Of a stretch of DNA of 64,000 bases, positions 31,301 through 37,655 are shown piece by piece. The DNA comes from Streptomyces ipomoeae 91-03 (GTDB taxonomy: Bacteria; Actinomycetota; Actinomycetes; Streptomycetales; Streptomycetaceae). Every line of letters begins with the position of its first letter. Position 1 is the stretch's first letter. The notes beneath the pieces are model-generated. The model did no database searches. It was not told the origin of the DNA and saw only the letters and a program-made list of their open reading frames with translations. A program made the translations under genes and the position numbers. The stretch is taken from positions 1 through 64,000 of the forward strand of contig NZ_AEJC01000490.1 in NCBI RefSeq assembly GCF_000317595.1, read 5' to 3'.

Positions 31301-32302
31301 TCAGGCCTCGACGCTGTCCTTCTGCGCGCCTTCGGCCTTCTCCTGCTCGGCCTCGGCTCGTGCCTGCTTCTTGGAGGCGATCAGGCTGGTGATCGTGGTG
31401 ACGATCAGGACCGCGCAGATCACGCCCAGCGAGACCGGGATGGAGATCTCGGGCACATGGACGCCGGACTCGTGCAGCGCGTGCAGCACCAGCTTCACAC
31501 CGATGAAGCCGAGGATGACCGACAGACCGTAGGAGAGGTGGACCAGCTTCTTCAGCAGACCGCCGATGAGGAAGTACAACTGCCTGAGACCCATCAGCGC
31601 GAACGCGTTGGCCGTGAACACGATGTACGGGTCCTGCGTCAGGCCGAAGATCGCCGGGATCGAGTCCAGGGCGAAGAGCACGTCGGTGGTGCCGATCGCG
31701 AGCATGACGACCAGCATCGGCGTCATGACGCGCTTGCCGTTCTGCTTGATCCACAGCTTGGTGCCGTGGTAGCGGTCGGCCACGCCGAAGCGCCTCTCGG
31801 CGGCCTTGAGGAGCTTGTTCTCCTCCCACTCCTCCTCCGACTCGTCCGCCCTGGCCTCCTGGATCAGCTTCCAGGCGGTGTAGATCAGGAACGCGCCGAA
31901 GATGTAGAAGACCCAGGAGAAGCTGGCGATGATCGCCGCACCCGCGGCGATGAATATCGCGCGAAGCACCAGGGCTATCAGCACACCGATCAGCAGGACC
32001 CGCTGCTGGTACTGGGAGGGCACGGCGAACTTCGCCATGATCAGGACGAAGACGAAGAGGTTGTCGACGCTCAGGGACTTCTCGGTGATGAAGCCCGCGA
32101 AGAACTCTCCGGCCGGCTGGCCACCGGCGAAGACAAGCAGTCCGAGCCCGAAGAGCGCGGCGAGGACGATCCAGACGACCGTCCAGATTCCGGCTTCCTT
32201 GATGGACACGTCATGGGGCTTGCGGCCGATGAAGAAGTCGACCGCGATGAGGGCGGCAAGGCCCACAACAGTCAGGACCCACAGGGTCGTGGAAACATCC
32301 AC
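31301..32302 (-). CDS. TerC-family integral membrane protein
   Basis: A 333-residue polytopic membrane protein of the TerC/Alx family, with about nine helices. Conserved features are SLSVDNLFVFVLIM (acidic residues in a helix), KRVMTPMLVVMLAIGTTDVLFALDSIPAIFG and a charged loop EEEWEENK. Family members export manganese or act in metal and redox homeostasis. GTG at 32302 is chosen; CCGGAGG lies 4 bases upstream. The gene has a predicted 176-base structured leader able to hide that site, and a good promoter at 32485-32513. Confidence 0.93.
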   Translation of the reverse strand: MDVSTTLWVLTVVGLAALIAVDFFIGRKPHDVSIKEAGIWTVVWIVLAALFGLGLLVFAGGQPAGEFFAGFITEKSLSVDNLFVFVLIMAKFAVPSQYQQRVLLIGVLIALVLRAIFIAAGAAIIASFSWVFYIFGAFLIYTAWKLIQEARADESEEEWEENKLLKAAERRFGVADRYHGTKLWIKQNGKRVMTPMLVVMLAIGTTDVLFALDSIPAIFGLTQDPYIVFTANAFALMGLRQLYFLIGGLLKKLVHLSYGLSVILGFIGVKLVLHALHESGVHVPEISIPVSLGVICAVLIVTTITSLIASKKQARAEAEQEKAEGAQKDSVEA

Positions 32303-32478
32303 TGCGCCTCCGGCAATACGTAACGGCAAATTTCAGCGTCATCGCTACCGGAGGTCTCTTCCACCCGGTCCTCCAGGACGTTCCACAACGCCTGGTGCCG
32401 CCGGGCCGACGCCCCGGGATCTGGATTGATCCGTATTGACGGGTACGCCGCAGCAAGTAGGGAGTACTCCCCTCCGCT
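32303..32478 (-). promoter_or_regulatory. Candidate manganese-type (yybP-ykoY-like) riboswitch leader of terC
   Basis: The predicted transcript starts at about 32478. Helix P1 can form between CGGAGG (32471-32476) and CCUCCG (32349-32354), enclosing about 115 bases. GGAGUA directly follows the 5' strand and AGAGA precedes the 3' strand, like the conserved edges of yybP-ykoY RNAs. Internal hairpins include CCGGG/CCCGG and CCAGGCGUU paired with AACGUCCUGG. The 3' strand CCUCCGG (32348-32354) is perfectly complementary to the ribosome binding site CCGGAGG (32307-32313), so P1 and an anti-Shine-Dalgarno helix exclude each other. Metal ligand is inferred from the family and the TerC gene. Confidence 0.6.
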
Positions 32479-32484
32479 CATAAG

Positions 32485-32513
32485 AGCCTACCCGTTCACC
32501 AAGAAAAGGTAAA
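32485..32513 (-). promoter_or_regulatory. Promoter of terC leader
   Basis: On the minus strand TTTACC and TAGGCT are separated by 17 bp. The start point, about 7 bases on, coincides with the first helix of the structured leader. Confidence 0.65.
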
Positions 32514-32584: not shown

Positions 32585-34729
32585 TCAGCGGTTCCAGGAG
32601 CGGCGGGCGTCCGCGACCTGAGTGAGCACGGTGTGCAGGACCCGGCTGCCGGGCGGGAGGAGTGAGGGCTCGTACGTCCATGCGTGCCCGACCCATGGGT
32701 CGGCCAGGTGGTCGTCGGGGGTGGGGGTGAGTCGCAGCAGCGAACGCCACAGCGGGTCGAGCAAGGGCCCGTACGCGGCGGCCTCCTGTCGGTCGGCGAC
32801 CATCATCAGCTGGACGCCTACGGCCGGGCCCTCGTCCGCGAGGTAGCGGAGCTGGGTCACGGCGCGGTCGTCGAAGCCGTGGGGGAAGTCGTTGACGATC
32901 AGGAGTTGTTCGGCCGTGTCGAAGCCCGGGGGCAGGGAGTCGGCCGCGCCGCCGCGCACCGCCATCTGCACGAGGTCGACGCGCTGGGTGAGCCGGCCCA
33001 GGACGTCCGAGACGCCCGCGGCTCCGGCGGCCGGCGGTCCGGCGAGGACATCGGCCTGCACCAGCGGCGCGAACGCGGAGGCGCCCGCCCCGGCCGGGTC
33101 GATGACGTGCACACCGAACTCGCCGGGCGGGTACACCGCGAGCAGTCGTGCGGCGAGCGCCACCGCTGTGTCCAGCGCGAGGCGGCGCAGTTCGTCGGAG
33201 TCGGTGAGCGAGTCACGGGAGCCGGTGCGGCCACTGTCGATCCACAGGCCCCGCTCCAGCGGCAGCCGGACCAGCATCGGGATGCGCAGGTCCTCGCTCT
33301 CCGGCAGATGCAGGTCGCCCACGCGCAGGGCCATGGAGATGTCCATCGGGACCCGGTAGCCGTGCCATACCGGGTTGTCCCAGCGTGCGTAGGCGGCGGG
33401 CAGCGCGGGCTCGACGACGTCGGCCTCGGCCCGGAGCTGGGCGAGGTCCCGGTCCAGGGCCTCCCTGGCCTGGTCGACGAGCTGGGCGTGCTTGGCGCGG
33501 GCGGCCTCACGCGCGGCGTCCCCCTGCCCACCGATCCGGCTGCGGGGGTCGGACAGGACCCTGTCCAGCTCCTGTTCCATGCGGGACTCGGCGAAGTCGA
33601 CGGCGCTGCGGTACGCGGCCGTGGTGCGGGCCAGATCCTCGAACATGCCCCACACCTGGTTGTAGAGCCGCTCGTCCATGGACCAGCCGGTGGCGTCACC
33701 GGCGACGGGCTGCGCGGGCTGCCCCGGCTGGGCCGGGGGCGCTGTCGGAGGGGGCGGTGGCGGTGCGGTGTTCTGGCGCCGGGGATGGGTGTAGTCGACC
33801 GGGCCGCCGGTCGCGGGTGCGGCGGGCTGGGTGCCGGTGGACGGGTCCGTCGGTGCCGGGCCGCCGTGCTGTGCGGACGCGTCGTCGGGCAGCGTGGCGT
33901 CCGGGGAAGCGGGGGCGCCGTAGGGAGGCGTGCCGTCGTGCGGTCCCGAGGCGCCGTACGGAGCGGTGGCGTCCGGGGTGCCCGGCGAGCCGTACGGGGA
34001 TGTCGTGCCGTACGGCGAGGTGGGCTGGGCTCCTCCCTGGGCCGGTGCCGTGCTCCCGGAGACGCCCTGTGGTGTTGTGCCGCCGTGGGTCTGGTCGGGG
34101 GCCGGCGTGGGCGCGGCGGTCTGCCGGGGGCGGTCGGCCTCGGGCAGGCGGGGCGGGGGCGCCGCCACCGAGCGGGCGAGGCCTTGGGCCACCGCCTCGT
34201 GAATGCTGCCCGCGAGCTGTCGGGCCTCGGGCAGGCCCTGGTCGGTCAGCAGGTCCATGAGGCCGCCCGCGTACCCCTGGCCGACCGCGCGGACCTTCCA
34301 GGCACCCTGCCTGCGATACAGCTCCAGGGCGATGACGGCGGACTCCGCCTCCAGGCCGGTGATGGTGTAGCTGGCGACCTCGGTGCCGTCGAGGCCGGTG
34401 ACCGCGACGAAGGGGGCGGGGACGGCGCCGAACCGCACCGGGCCACCCGTCCCGGACGGCAGCGCGAGCAGCACGGTGACCCGGTGCACGGACGGCGGCA
34501 GGGCGCTCAGGTCCACGGCGAGGCGGTGGTCGGCCGCCGCCTGCTTGGAGACCTCCAGGCCCGGCAGGGTGGGCGCGCCCGGATGGGCCACCCACTCCAC
34601 GCCGTGCACCCGGCCGTGCTCGTCGCCGAGGGTGGCTCCGGCCACTATCGGCGCGCCGGCCGAGACCCGTATCTCCAGTCGGACCTCGGGCAGCGGATGG
34701 TTCTGCCCCCGGACCAGCTCGGCCGTCAT
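32585..34729 (-). CDS. TerD-domain protein fused to FtsK-like pseudo-ATPase
   Basis: A 714-residue soluble protein. Residues 1-180 are a TerD-like beta-sandwich (LPEVRLEIRVSAG, ITGLEAESAVIALELYRRQGAWKVRAVGQGY). Residues 190-345 are a Pro/Gly/Ala-rich linker with tandem PYG-type repeats. Residues 350-714 resemble the ATPase fold of FtsK-like proteins: the usual Walker A Lys-Ser is replaced (GRTGSRDS), while a Walker-B-like LLIVNDFP and RRLALDTAVALAARLLA helix remain. It is therefore probably catalytically dead. An AGGGGGA site precedes the ATG. It follows terD by 46 bp and likely shares its transcript. Confidence 0.82.
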   Translation of the reverse strand: MTAELVRGQNHPLPEVRLEIRVSAGAPIVAGATLGDEHGRVHGVEWVAHPGAPTLPGLEVSKQAAADHRLAVDLSALPPSVHRVTVLLALPSGTGGPVRFGAVPAPFVAVTGLDGTEVASYTITGLEAESAVIALELYRRQGAWKVRAVGQGYAGGLMDLLTDQGLPEARQLAGSIHEAVAQGLARSVAAPPPRLPEADRPRQTAAPTPAPDQTHGGTTPQGVSGSTAPAQGGAQPTSPYGTTSPYGSPGTPDATAPYGASGPHDGTPPYGAPASPDATLPDDASAQHGGPAPTDPSTGTQPAAPATGGPVDYTHPRRQNTAPPPPPPTAPPAQPGQPAQPVAGDATGWSMDERLYNQVWGMFEDLARTTAAYRSAVDFAESRMEQELDRVLSDPRSRIGGQGDAAREAARAKHAQLVDQAREALDRDLAQLRAEADVVEPALPAAYARWDNPVWHGYRVPMDISMALRVGDLHLPESEDLRIPMLVRLPLERGLWIDSGRTGSRDSLTDSDELRRLALDTAVALAARLLAVYPPGEFGVHVIDPAGAGASAFAPLVQADVLAGPPAAGAAGVSDVLGRLTQRVDLVQMAVRGGAADSLPPGFDTAEQLLIVNDFPHGFDDRAVTQLRYLADEGPAVGVQLMMVADRQEAAAYGPLLDPLWRSLLRLTPTPDDHLADPWVGHAWTYEPSLLPPGSRVLHTVLTQVADARRSWNR

Positions 34730-34775: not shown

Positions 34776-35354
34776 CTACAGGACCGGCAGGATCGCGGGC
34801 ATCAGGTCCTGGAAGGTGCGGCCGTTGGCGGGCGAACCGATGGCGGTCATCTGCCAGCCCCCGCCCGAGCGGTGCACCTTGGCCATGATCTGGGCCGTGT
34901 ACTGGCCGCCGCCCGCGAGGGTGTAGCGCGCGAGCTCCTGCCCGTTCGTCTCGTCGACCAGTCGGCAGAACGCGTTCTGCACTTCCTGGAACGTCTGACC
35001 CGTGAAGGAGTTCACGGTGAAGATGATCTGGTCGATGTGGACGGGGACACGGGCCAGGTCGACGAGGATCGCCTCGTCGTCGCCGCCCTGGCCTACACCA
35101 CCGACCAGGTTGTCACCGGTGTGACGGACGGAGCCGTCGTCGCTCACCAGGTGACGGAAGAAGACGACGTCGACCGGCTGCTTGTCCGCGAACAGGACGG
35201 CCGAGGCGTCGAGGTCGATCTCACGGGTGCGGGATCCGAACAGGCCGCGCCGGGGGGCAGCCTGCCAGCCGAGACCCATGCGCACCGCGGTCAGGCTGCC
35301 TCCGTCGTTCTTCTGCAGACTGATGGCCTGACCCTTGGTCATGTTGACGGTCAC
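34776..35354 (-). CDS. terD: TerD-family stress protein
   Basis: A 192-residue TerD-fold protein. These are calcium-binding beta-sandwich proteins found with tellurite, phage and DNA-damage stress loci. The motifs MTKGQAISLQK, EIDLDASAVLF and GDNLVGGVGQGGDDEAILVDL with its acidic metal site are intact. GTG at 35354 has AGGGGAA upstream. It probably heads an operon with the TerD/FtsK-like fusion. A damage-type promoter (TTGTCAGTG-N8-TATGGT) at 35412-35434 gives a leader of about 50 bases. Confidence 0.93.
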   Translation of the reverse strand: MTVNMTKGQAISLQKNDGGSLTAVRMGLGWQAAPRRGLFGSRTREIDLDASAVLFADKQPVDVVFFRHLVSDDGSVRHTGDNLVGGVGQGGDDEAILVDLARVPVHIDQIIFTVNSFTGQTFQEVQNAFCRLVDETNGQELARYTLAGGGQYTAQIMAKVHRSGGGWQMTAIGSPANGRTFQDLMPAILPVL

Positions 35355-35525: not shown

Positions 35526-37655
35526 TCAGGCCAGGCCCGCCTCCTTCATCTGCCGCAGCTCCTTCTTCATCTCCGAGACCTCGTCGCGCAGCCGGGCGGC
35601 GATCTCGAACTGCAAGTCGGCGGCAGCCGCACGCATCCGCGCCGTCATCTCCTCGATCTGCTCGGCGAGGTCGGCCGCGGGACGGTCGGTCGGCACCGTC
35701 TCCTTGGTCTTGCCCTTGGCGGACTTGGCCGCCTTGCCGGCGAGGGATGGCACGGGGGCCTTCGCGCCCTTGCCGTCCTTCCCCTTGCGGTAGCCCGTGC
35801 CGAGCAGCTGTTCGGTGTCGACGTCCTCGCGAGCGATCTGCGCGACGATGTCGTTGATCTTCTTGCGGAGCGGCTGCGGGTCGATGCCGTTCGCCTTGTT
35901 GTACGCGACCTGCTTCTCCCGGCGGCGGTTGGTCTCGTCGATGGCCTTCTCCATCGCCGGGGTGATCTTGTCGGCGTACATGTGGACCTGGCCGGACACA
36001 TTGCGCGCCGCGCGGCCGATGGTCTGGATCAGAGAGGTCCCGGAGCGCAGGAAGCCCTCCTTGTCGGCGTCCAGGATCGCCACCAGGGAGACCTCGGGGA
36101 GGTCGAGGCCCTCGCGCAGGAGGTTGATGCCGACCAGGACGTCGTACTCGCCGGAGCGCAGCTCGCGCAGCAGCTCGACACGGCGCAGGGTGTCGACGTC
36201 GCTGTGGAGGTAGCGGACCTGGATGCCGAGTTCCAGGAAGTAGTCGGTGAGGTCCTCGGCCATCTTCTTGGTGAGCGTGGTGACCAGGACGCGCTCGTCC
36301 TTCTCGGTGCGCTTGCGGATCTCGTGCACCAGGTCGTCGATCTGGCCCTCGGTGGGCTTGACGACGACCTCGGGGTCGACCAGTCCGGTGGGGCGGATGA
36401 TCTGCTCGACCTGACCGTCGGAGCGGGACAGCTCGTACTGGCCCGGGGTCGCCGAGAGGTAGACGGTCTGGCCGATGCGCTTCTGGAACTCCTCCCACTT
36501 CAGGGGCCGGTTGTCCAGGGCGGACGGCAGCCGGAAGCCGTGGTCCACGAGGGTGCGCTTGCGGGAGGCGTCGCCCTCGTACATCGCGCCGATCTGGGGG
36601 ACGGTGACGTGGGACTCGTCGATGACGAGGAGGAAGTCCTCCGGGAAGTAGTCGAGCAGCGTGTTCGGCGGGGAGCCGGGCTCGCGGCCGTCGAAGTGCA
36701 TCGAGTAGTTCTCCACGCCCGAGCAGGAGCCGATCTGGCGGAGCATCTCGATGTCGTAGGTGGTGCGCATCCGCAGGCGCTGGGCCTCCAGAAGCTTGCC
36801 CTGCTTCTCCAGCTCCGCCAGGCGCTCCGCCAGTTCCTTCTCGATGTCGTTGACGGCCCGCTCCATGCGCTCGGGGCCGGCGACGTAGTGGGAGGCGGGG
36901 AAGACGTACAGCTGCTGGTCGTCGCTGATGATCTCGCCGGTGAGCGGGTGCAGCGTGGAGAGGGCCTCGATCTCGTCGCCGAACATCTCGATGCGGACGG
37001 CGAGTTCCTCGTAGACCGGGAAGATCTCGATGGTGTCGCCGCGGACGCGGAAGGTGCCGCGGGTGAACGCCAGGTCGTTGCGGGTGTACTGGATGTCCAC
37101 GAAGCGGCGCAGCAGCTCGTCCCGGTCGTGTTCGTCGCCGACCTTCAGGGGGACCATCCGGTCGACGTACTCCTGGGGCGTACCGAGGCCGTAGATGCAG
37201 GAGACCGAGGCGACCACGACGACGTCGCGGCGGGTGAGCAGCGAGTTGGTCGCGGAGTGGCGCAGGCGCTCGACCTCCTCGTTGATCGAGGAGTCCTTCT
37301 CGATGTAGGTGTCCGACTGCGGGACGTAGGCCTCGGGTTGGTAGTAGTCGTAGTACGAGACGAAGTATTCGACCGCGTTGTTCGGCAGCAGCTCGCGGAA
37401 CTCGTTGGCCAGCTGGGCGGCCAGCGTCTTGTTCGGCGCCATCACCAGGGTGGGGCGCTGGAGCTTCTCGATCATCCACGCGGTGGTGGCGGACTTGCCG
37501 GTGCCGGTCGCGCCGAGCAGGACGACGTCCTTCTCACCTGCTTCGATGCGCCGGGCCAGCTCGGCGATGGCCGTGGGCTGGTCGCCGCTCGGCTGGTAGG
37601 GGCTGACGACCTCGAAGGGCGCCACCGTGCGTTCGATCTTGGAAACGGGCCGCAT
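35526..37655 (-). CDS. uvrB: Excinuclease ABC subunit B
   Basis: UvrB is the helicase-like factor that verifies damage and recruits UvrC. The 709-residue product has Walker A GATGTGKS (47-54), the beta-hairpin region [21 protein letters not shown], motif VI GRAARN and a C-terminal UVR motif ([28 protein letters not shown], residues split across 670-700). A Lys-rich linker ([10 protein letters not shown]) precedes it. The ATG at 37655 lies 6 bases after TACGGT, so the mRNA is probably leaderless. It is 39 bp downstream of the MHYT gene. Confidence 0.98.

Follow-up and report, generated by a model that had tools for sequence, protein, structure and literature searches.

The best described relatives of the RNA analysed here are leaders of the yybP-ykoY class. 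The E. coli alx leader, which also precedes a gene of the TerC/Alx family, is reported as a Mn2+ riboswitch in PMC9603457. For the aptamers of L. lactis (yoaB) and X. oryzae, both with solved structures, PMC6754395 gives the L3 bulges as UCA41AU43UC and ACA48U49ACU52, respectively, with A41 and A48 contacting Mn2+, and reports a four-way junction as well as control at the level of transcription. In C. glutamicum, the leader of cg2157 (terC) was filed under RF00080 in 2013, with 49.13 bits from an older Rfam release and RNA-seq support (PMC3890552, Table 2), PMC4046766 mentions two yybP-ykoY motifs in this species, and PMC8164766 names yybP-ykoY as one of the RNAs that studies of Corynebacterium and Streptomyces brought to light. 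Going by these accounts, a terC leader had already been annotated as yybP-ykoY in print, in C. glutamicum. Among the papers listed by our literature searches, none was on, or had an experiment with, a Streptomyces copy of this leader; an earlier annotation in Streptomyces is possible.

Here, we analyse the terC leader of Streptomyces ipomoeae 91-03 in a window of 64,000 nucleotides (positions 1 to 64,000 of contig NZ_AEJC01000490.1). Very probably, this leader belongs to the yybP-ykoY class as an alx-type Mn2+ riboswitch and switches on the translation of terC. To our knowledge, the gap in the present Rfam model, the breadth of the element among actinobacteria and the double use of one of its strands are new.

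Architecture of the terC leader

The terC/alx coding sequence occupies positions 31301..32302 of the minus strand, with a GTG start at 32302, and encodes a protein of 333 aa that belongs to the TerC/Alx family, with 180 bits for PF03741 in the Pfam search and 386 bits for TIGR03718 (TerC/Alx), against a cut-off of 246, in the NCBIfam search. Two genes with TerD domains (32585-34729 and 34776-35354) and uvrB (35526-37655) are located further upstream, also on the minus strand. All parts of the leader are on the minus strand as well, and its length of about 176 nt depends on an inferred transcription start at ~32479-32478. The promoter (32485..32513), identified from sequence and conservation, consists of the -35 element TTTACC (32513-32508), a 17-nt spacer and the -10 element TAGGCT (32490-32485). 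The preliminary description called it a good promoter; it is indeed present, and 80 of 81 sequences (the window plus 80 related loci) share its layout, with TTTACC/T and TAnnnT separated by 17 or 18 nt, but ‘good' overstates a weak match to the consensus, and a consensus scan that requires at least nine of 12 matching positions reports none. The conserved TAnnnT ends 7-9 nt before the P1.1 helix in 80 of the 81 sequences, with locus L028 as the exception.

The aptamer opens with CGGAGG, the 5' strand of the switch helix P1.1 (32471..32476), which is defined by sequence, conservation and covariation across families. It is followed by GGAGUA, the 5' side of the metal-site loop L1 (32465..32470), and CUCC, the 5' strand of helix P1.2 (32461..32464), for which an OFF hairpin found by RNAalifold offers an alternative partner, GGAG at 32475-32472. 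The P3 stem comprises the 5' strand of P3a (CGGCGUACCCG, 32440..32450), the 7-nt L3 bulge UCAAUAC (32433..32439), the P3b hairpin GGAUC-loop-GAUCC (32417..32432), which shows compensatory changes, and the 3' strand of P3a (CGGGGCGUCG, 32407..32416); then comes P4, a hairpin of variable length with the base CCCGG/CCGGG (32364..32405), and both P3a and P4 are recovered by RNAalifold and covary. The 3' side of the aptamer is made up of GGAA, the 3' strand of P1.2 read from the alignment rows (32359..32362), and GAGA, the 3' side of L1 (32355..32358), with an AGAGA edge at 32359-32355. Next to it lies the dual-use strand CCUCCGGUA (32346..32354), in which the first six bases, CCUCCG (32354-32349), are the 3' strand of P1.1 and all nine are the anti-RBS strand. 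According to the covariation analysis of the ON structure, a small hairpin, UAGCG/CGCUG (32334..32347), can form when P1.1 is formed. Finally, UGCCGGAGG (32307..32315), supported by the conserved GGAGG and by pairing counts, includes the ribosome-binding site (RBS) CCGGAGG (32313-32307), to which CCUCCGG (32354-32348) is fully complementary; in the window, the anti-RBS helix extends to nine pairs, one of them G-U.

The outer helix with its flanking GGAGUA and AGAGA, and the perfect complement of the RBS, both put forward in the preliminary description, are borne out in the window and show hardly any variation among 80 Streptomyces-type leaders. Three elements go beyond that description: the inner helix P1.2, the bulged P3 stem (7 nt in the bulge) and P4, the hairpin of variable length.

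The core shared with E. coli alx includes GGGGAGUA, P1.2, the GUCAUUACG bulge, CCGG and GAGACC, whereas the sequence of P1.1, P4 and the downstream platform differ, the start codon following the aptamer after ~80 nt in alx versus 46 nt in the window. The L3 bulge of the L. lactis yoaB aptamer reads UCAAUUC where the window has UCAAUAC, and the sensing A is in the third bulge position in the L. lactis and X. oryzae aptamers, as it is here; no P2 hairpin is evident in the window leader, in contrast to the four-way junction of PMC6754395. With the cg2157 leader of C. glutamicum, the likeness noted is one of phylum and downstream gene name.

Conservation within Streptomyces

From 555 relatives of TerC in named genomes, the best 80 loci were kept, comprising 79 Streptomyces records and one locus (L009) titled ‘Actinobacteria bacterium'. 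The element is present in 79 of these 80 loci and absent in L028 (Streptomyces sp. H39-S7), where terC and the CCGGAGG RBS are kept and the 300 nt upstream of position 1501 contain no riboswitch. The MAFFT alignment A1, from which L028 was left out, has 80 rows including the window. The distance between P1.1 and the start codon varies among the leaders (140-178 nt). The two sides of L1, GGAGUA and GAGA, are each kept in 79 of the 80 rows, and all 80 have the A in the third position of L3 and a GGAGG 4-7 nt upstream of the terC start codon.

Unguided RNAalifold on A1 recovers P3a, P3b, P4 and the anti-RBS helix CCUCCGGC/GCCGGAGG, along with a hairpin in which the 5' strand of P1.1 pairs with CUCC. 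The ON structure is paired in 96.5% of the cells, with seven double-change pairs compared with 3.5 in shuffles (0/500), and the OFF structure in 96.7%, with six double-change pairs compared with 3.5 (1/500); by one of five measures, the number of pair types, the OFF structure does not exceed the shuffles (205/500). The anti-RBS pairing is formed in 98.4% of the cells. P1.1 is nearly invariant within Streptomyces, so that this sample cannot test the helix, and its covariation comes from other families.

Covariation across families and the metal site

Two broader alignments were prepared with the help of R1, a covariance model for which 27 Streptomyces-type aptamers were the sole input. The 88 rows of A3 derive from 86 sources, including alx and seven actinobacterial leaders flagged by RF00080, with four second copies added and without L114 and L119, which were not reached with default filters; A4 has 75 rows, 75 of the 76 sources being kept and L223 falling under the threshold. 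In these alignments, which were fitted to the R1 structure and hence lean towards it, 95.9% of the cells pair in A3, with 450 double-change cells compared with 118.5 in shuffles (0/500) and never more than 70 in slid versions of the structure, and 95.8% pair in A4, with 332 double-change cells compared with 90.4 (0/500) and at most 51 in slid versions. The alignment of terC leaders in search of covarying pairs, a check named in the preliminary description, thus reveals very strong covariation across actinobacteria (332 versus 90.4 in A4).

The helix P1.2, which is not in model R1, pairs in 92.6% of the cells of A3, and each of its four pairs shows double changes; it has the variants UCCC/GGGA, UUCC/GGAA, CUUC/GAAG, CUCC/GGAG and GUCC/GGAC, as well as ACUU/AAGU in alx. 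P1.1 occurs as CGGAG/CCUCC, GCAAG/CCUUG and CGAAG/CCUUC, and four of its six pairs differ between families on both strands. Of the 75 rows of A4, 21 lack the outermost P1.1 pair and 19 lack the P1.2 pair adjoining L1.

The metal-site motifs are kept. In A3, L1 reads GGAGUA in 88 of 88 rows and GAGA in 87 of 88, and the L3 bulge is UCAnnAC in 80 rows, UCAUCUC in one and of the ACAnnCU type in seven, with A always in the third position. Judged by sequence, the A at 32437 is the counterpart of the A41 (L. lactis) and A48 (X. oryzae) that contact Mn2+ according to PMC6754395. The sequence comparison confirms that the leader structure is not a product of chance: among the Streptomyces-type leaders, the outer helix, the loop motifs and the anti-RBS pairing hardly change, and in other families there is covariation in the aptamer helices.

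Relationship to the yybP-ykoY class

The current model of the class, RF00080 of Rfam 15, has no match on the leader at E 10, its 45-bit cut-off not being reached, and none in 16 other Streptomyces loci; among 296 genomes of the same taxonomic class, none has a match above the cut-off and 21 have matches at E 0.1 or less. Three RF00080 matches elsewhere in the genome of the window (the best with 13.2 bits) look like chance. The other families among the 4227 of Rfam produce no match at gathering score in the whole window and, in the leader region, only chance-level matches to unrelated families. Among 14 control genomes, RF00080 exceeds its cut-off in two, and it matches somewhere in the whole E. 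coli genome, at a place that the search does not show; in a control search of the alx locus of E. coli K-12, the alx riboswitch is missed at E 1. Because RF00080 misses alx as well, the lack of a score is not evidence against membership, and a score with this model does not define the class. In C. glutamicum, where an older release gave the terC leader the 49.13 bits cited above, the present RF00080 has matches only at E 10, not over the cut-off, and the model seems to have become narrower.

Models built from the leaders themselves give a different picture. R1 matches E. coli alx (L135, 1376-1499, in the leader at 1375-1500) with 29.5 bits and E 1.4e-4, as well as nine of the nine tested actinobacterial leaders that RF00080 had flagged below its cut-off (27.6-44.2 bits, the next other match having 17.7); it does not single out E. 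coli mntP, which is among the noise with 5.4 bits. These nine leaders come from 21 loci brought in by RF00080, of which ten were read (L114-L123) and nine used, L122 being without the motif. R2, a model made from 75 actinobacterial leaders without E. coli and without the nine flagged leaders, matches alx with 55.9 bits (E 2.4e-11), the nine with 39.7-58.2 bits and, weakly, mntP at its place (L136, 966-1072, between GGGGAGUAGC and GGCGAGACC; 19.8 bits, E 0.011). The check with the yybP-ykoY covariance model that the preliminary description envisaged thus came out empty, and the models built from the leaders themselves retrieved alx.

The L114-L123-type leaders have the same fold as the window and are matched by R1 and R2, but their L3 bulge is of the ACAUACU kind, compared with UCAAUAC in the window, and their RF00080 score stays below the cut-off. 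Seven of the nine precede a gene similar to that of L117, which encodes a GDT1-family protein, and no such gene was found downstream in L114 and L115.

The likeness to yybP-ykoY RNAs noticed in the preliminary description is therefore backed by covariance models, covariation, metal-site motifs and gene context. The leader shares with the class an L1 with GGGGAGUA on its 5' side and GAGA on its 3' side, a 7-nt L3 bulge with an invariant A, the covariation-supported helix order P1.1 - L1 - P1.2 - P3 with bulge - P4, homology to experimentally known members (alx by R1 and R2, mntP weakly by R2) and a position upstream of a gene of the Mn2+-homeostasis type (TerC/Alx; TIGR03718). These results show that a branch of this well-known riboswitch class, with E. 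coli alx among its members, escapes the present Rfam model.

Alternative pairings and the proposed switch

Among the 60 non-Streptomyces loci examined, 50 have a usable terC start and ten do not. The 3' strand of P1.1 pairs with the region before the start, at a score met by no more than 5% of shuffles, in 25 of these 50 leaders (2.5 expected), and in 24 of the 25 at a GGAG- or GAAGG-like site. The other 25 leaders, some of which have misplaced starts, show no significant anti-RBS pairing, so that this expression platform is not universal. In a swap test with the 26 leaders that have a Shine-Dalgarno-like site, out of 36 with a proper start, the cognate anti-RBS pairing scores 20.65 on average compared with 19.67 for swapped pairs, a value reached by 82 of 10000 permutations. 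The mutual exclusion of the two pairings, proposed at the outset, is kept in Streptomyces; among the terC leaders tested from other actinobacteria, roughly half (25 of 50) share it.

Comparison of sequences supports the aptamer fold, the class membership, the gene context and both alternative pairings; we infer Mn2+ as the ligand, the ON direction and the translational level of control. In the presence of Mn2+, L1 (GGAGUA/GAGA) would dock on the L3 bulge UCAAUAC and thereby lock P1.1 (CGGAGG/CCUCCG), which would leave the RBS CCGGAGG free and translation of terC, the gene for a putative metal membrane protein of the TerC/Alx family, switched on. In the absence of Mn2+, the 3' strand of P1.1, within CCUCCGGUA, would pair with the RBS and switch translation off, and the 5' strand of P1.1 could close on CUCC. 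Such a compact design, in which one strand serves either the sensor helix or the block on the RBS, would be easy to test and might furnish a Mn2+-responsive part for Streptomyces.

Under a nearest-neighbour model without docking, metal binding or co-transcriptional folding, evaluated for 79 of the 81 sequences (L028 and L053 left out), the OFF fold has a mean advantage of 11.6 kcal/mol and is the lowest-energy structure in 78 of the 79. Given this gap, switching would need the energy of tertiary contacts and metal, or folding during transcription, which points to a kinetic switch, provided that there is one. Folding of the leader alone, with a z-score of -1.79, likewise yields the OFF fold and is no test of the docked one. 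The strong in silico preference for the OFF fold can also be taken to favour a constitutive leader structure, a leader peptide or a protein-binding site, without any switching by a ligand, and in 77 of 80 leaders a frame of at least six codons begins at a GTG within the 3' part of the aptamer. We consider this very improbable because two competing pairings are both kept, which speaks against a constitutive structure, and the GTG belongs to the aptamer motif in leaders that vary in length (140-178 nt). The leader peptide in particular was rejected, since the sole frame kept in most rows starts inside that motif. Control mainly of transcription or mRNA stability, rather than of ribosome access, by a Mn2+ riboswitch would agree with the half of the other leaders that has no significant anti-RBS pairing and with the transcription antitermination that PMC6754395 describes for a yybP-ykoY member; the RBS, however, is inside the alternative helix in the window and in Streptomyces, and a search of the leader for a terminator-like site found none, which makes this option improbable.

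A different signal is the alternative to which we give the most room, although it is still unlikely: the same fold and switch might respond to alkaline pH together with Mn2+, or to another divalent ion such as Ca2+. For the E. coli alx and mntP reporters, PMC9603457 describes full activation only when alkaline pH and Mn2+ are combined, PMC9495176 reports that a Streptococcus copy binds Ca2+ as well as Mn2+, terC itself encodes an Alx-family protein and a non-standard C.A adjoins L1 in 77 of 80 Streptomyces-type leaders; yet the sensing A is invariant, the Mn2+ site retains its two loop motifs and, by the account of PMC9603457, Mn2+ elicits a response in relatives that share this core. A new riboswitch class, unrelated to yybP-ykoY, was the reading that the preliminary description attached to a covarying leader below the Rfam threshold, and it is true that no Rfam family reaches threshold on the window and that RF00080 is unmatched even at E 10. 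That reading is not supported and is largely refuted, to the point of being extremely improbable, by the strong match of the leader-built models to alx, their weak match to mntP and the failure of RF00080 on alx itself.

The alx-type Mn2+ riboswitch can be elaborated in a more speculative direction that strikes us as decidedly unlikely. The actinobacterial leaders might form a large sub-class of Mn2+ riboswitches below the Rfam cut-off, in which the 3' strand of P1.1 often acts as an anti-Shine-Dalgarno sequence and, in Streptomyces, the C.A pair (77 of 80; otherwise U-A or C-G) creates a combined Mn2+/pH sensor that sets terC expression; if so, closure of the sensor and access of the ribosome would be one pairing event. 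The pair in question adjoins the metal loop at 32464/32359 of the window (C13/A118 of the leader) and is C.A in 77 leaders, U-A in two and C-G in one; C13 is also part of the predicted OFF hairpin.

Distribution and genomic context

At E 0.01 or less per genome, R1 matches 224 of the 394 genomes of the taxonomic class (about four expected by chance), which represent 77 of 137 genera. In a sample of the phylum, 31 of 246 genomes have matches at E 0.001, and 16 of the 31 are outside the class. The genome of the window has a single copy. The 60 non-Streptomyces copies, which were hand-picked from the best-scoring listed R1 matches for family spread and are not a random sample, precede terC on the same strand in 55 cases. 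Thus, terC of Streptomyces and many other actinobacteria is probably under direct Mn2+ control.

In three genomes, the riboswitch stands upstream of a gene for a protein of 288-294 aa instead of terC (L169, 301-395; L174, 1801-1893 on the minus strand; L187, 301-398). These proteins have no Pfam match in the two cases searched (L174 and L187) and no NCBIfam match in the one searched (L187), and a new Mn2+-regulated protein is possible. In the genome of L187, another copy of the riboswitch lies upstream of terC (L173). Some loci have two aptamers close together: in L217, L222 and L177, they are on opposite strands and back-to-back, and L204 has two on the same strand, with a second terC match downstream.
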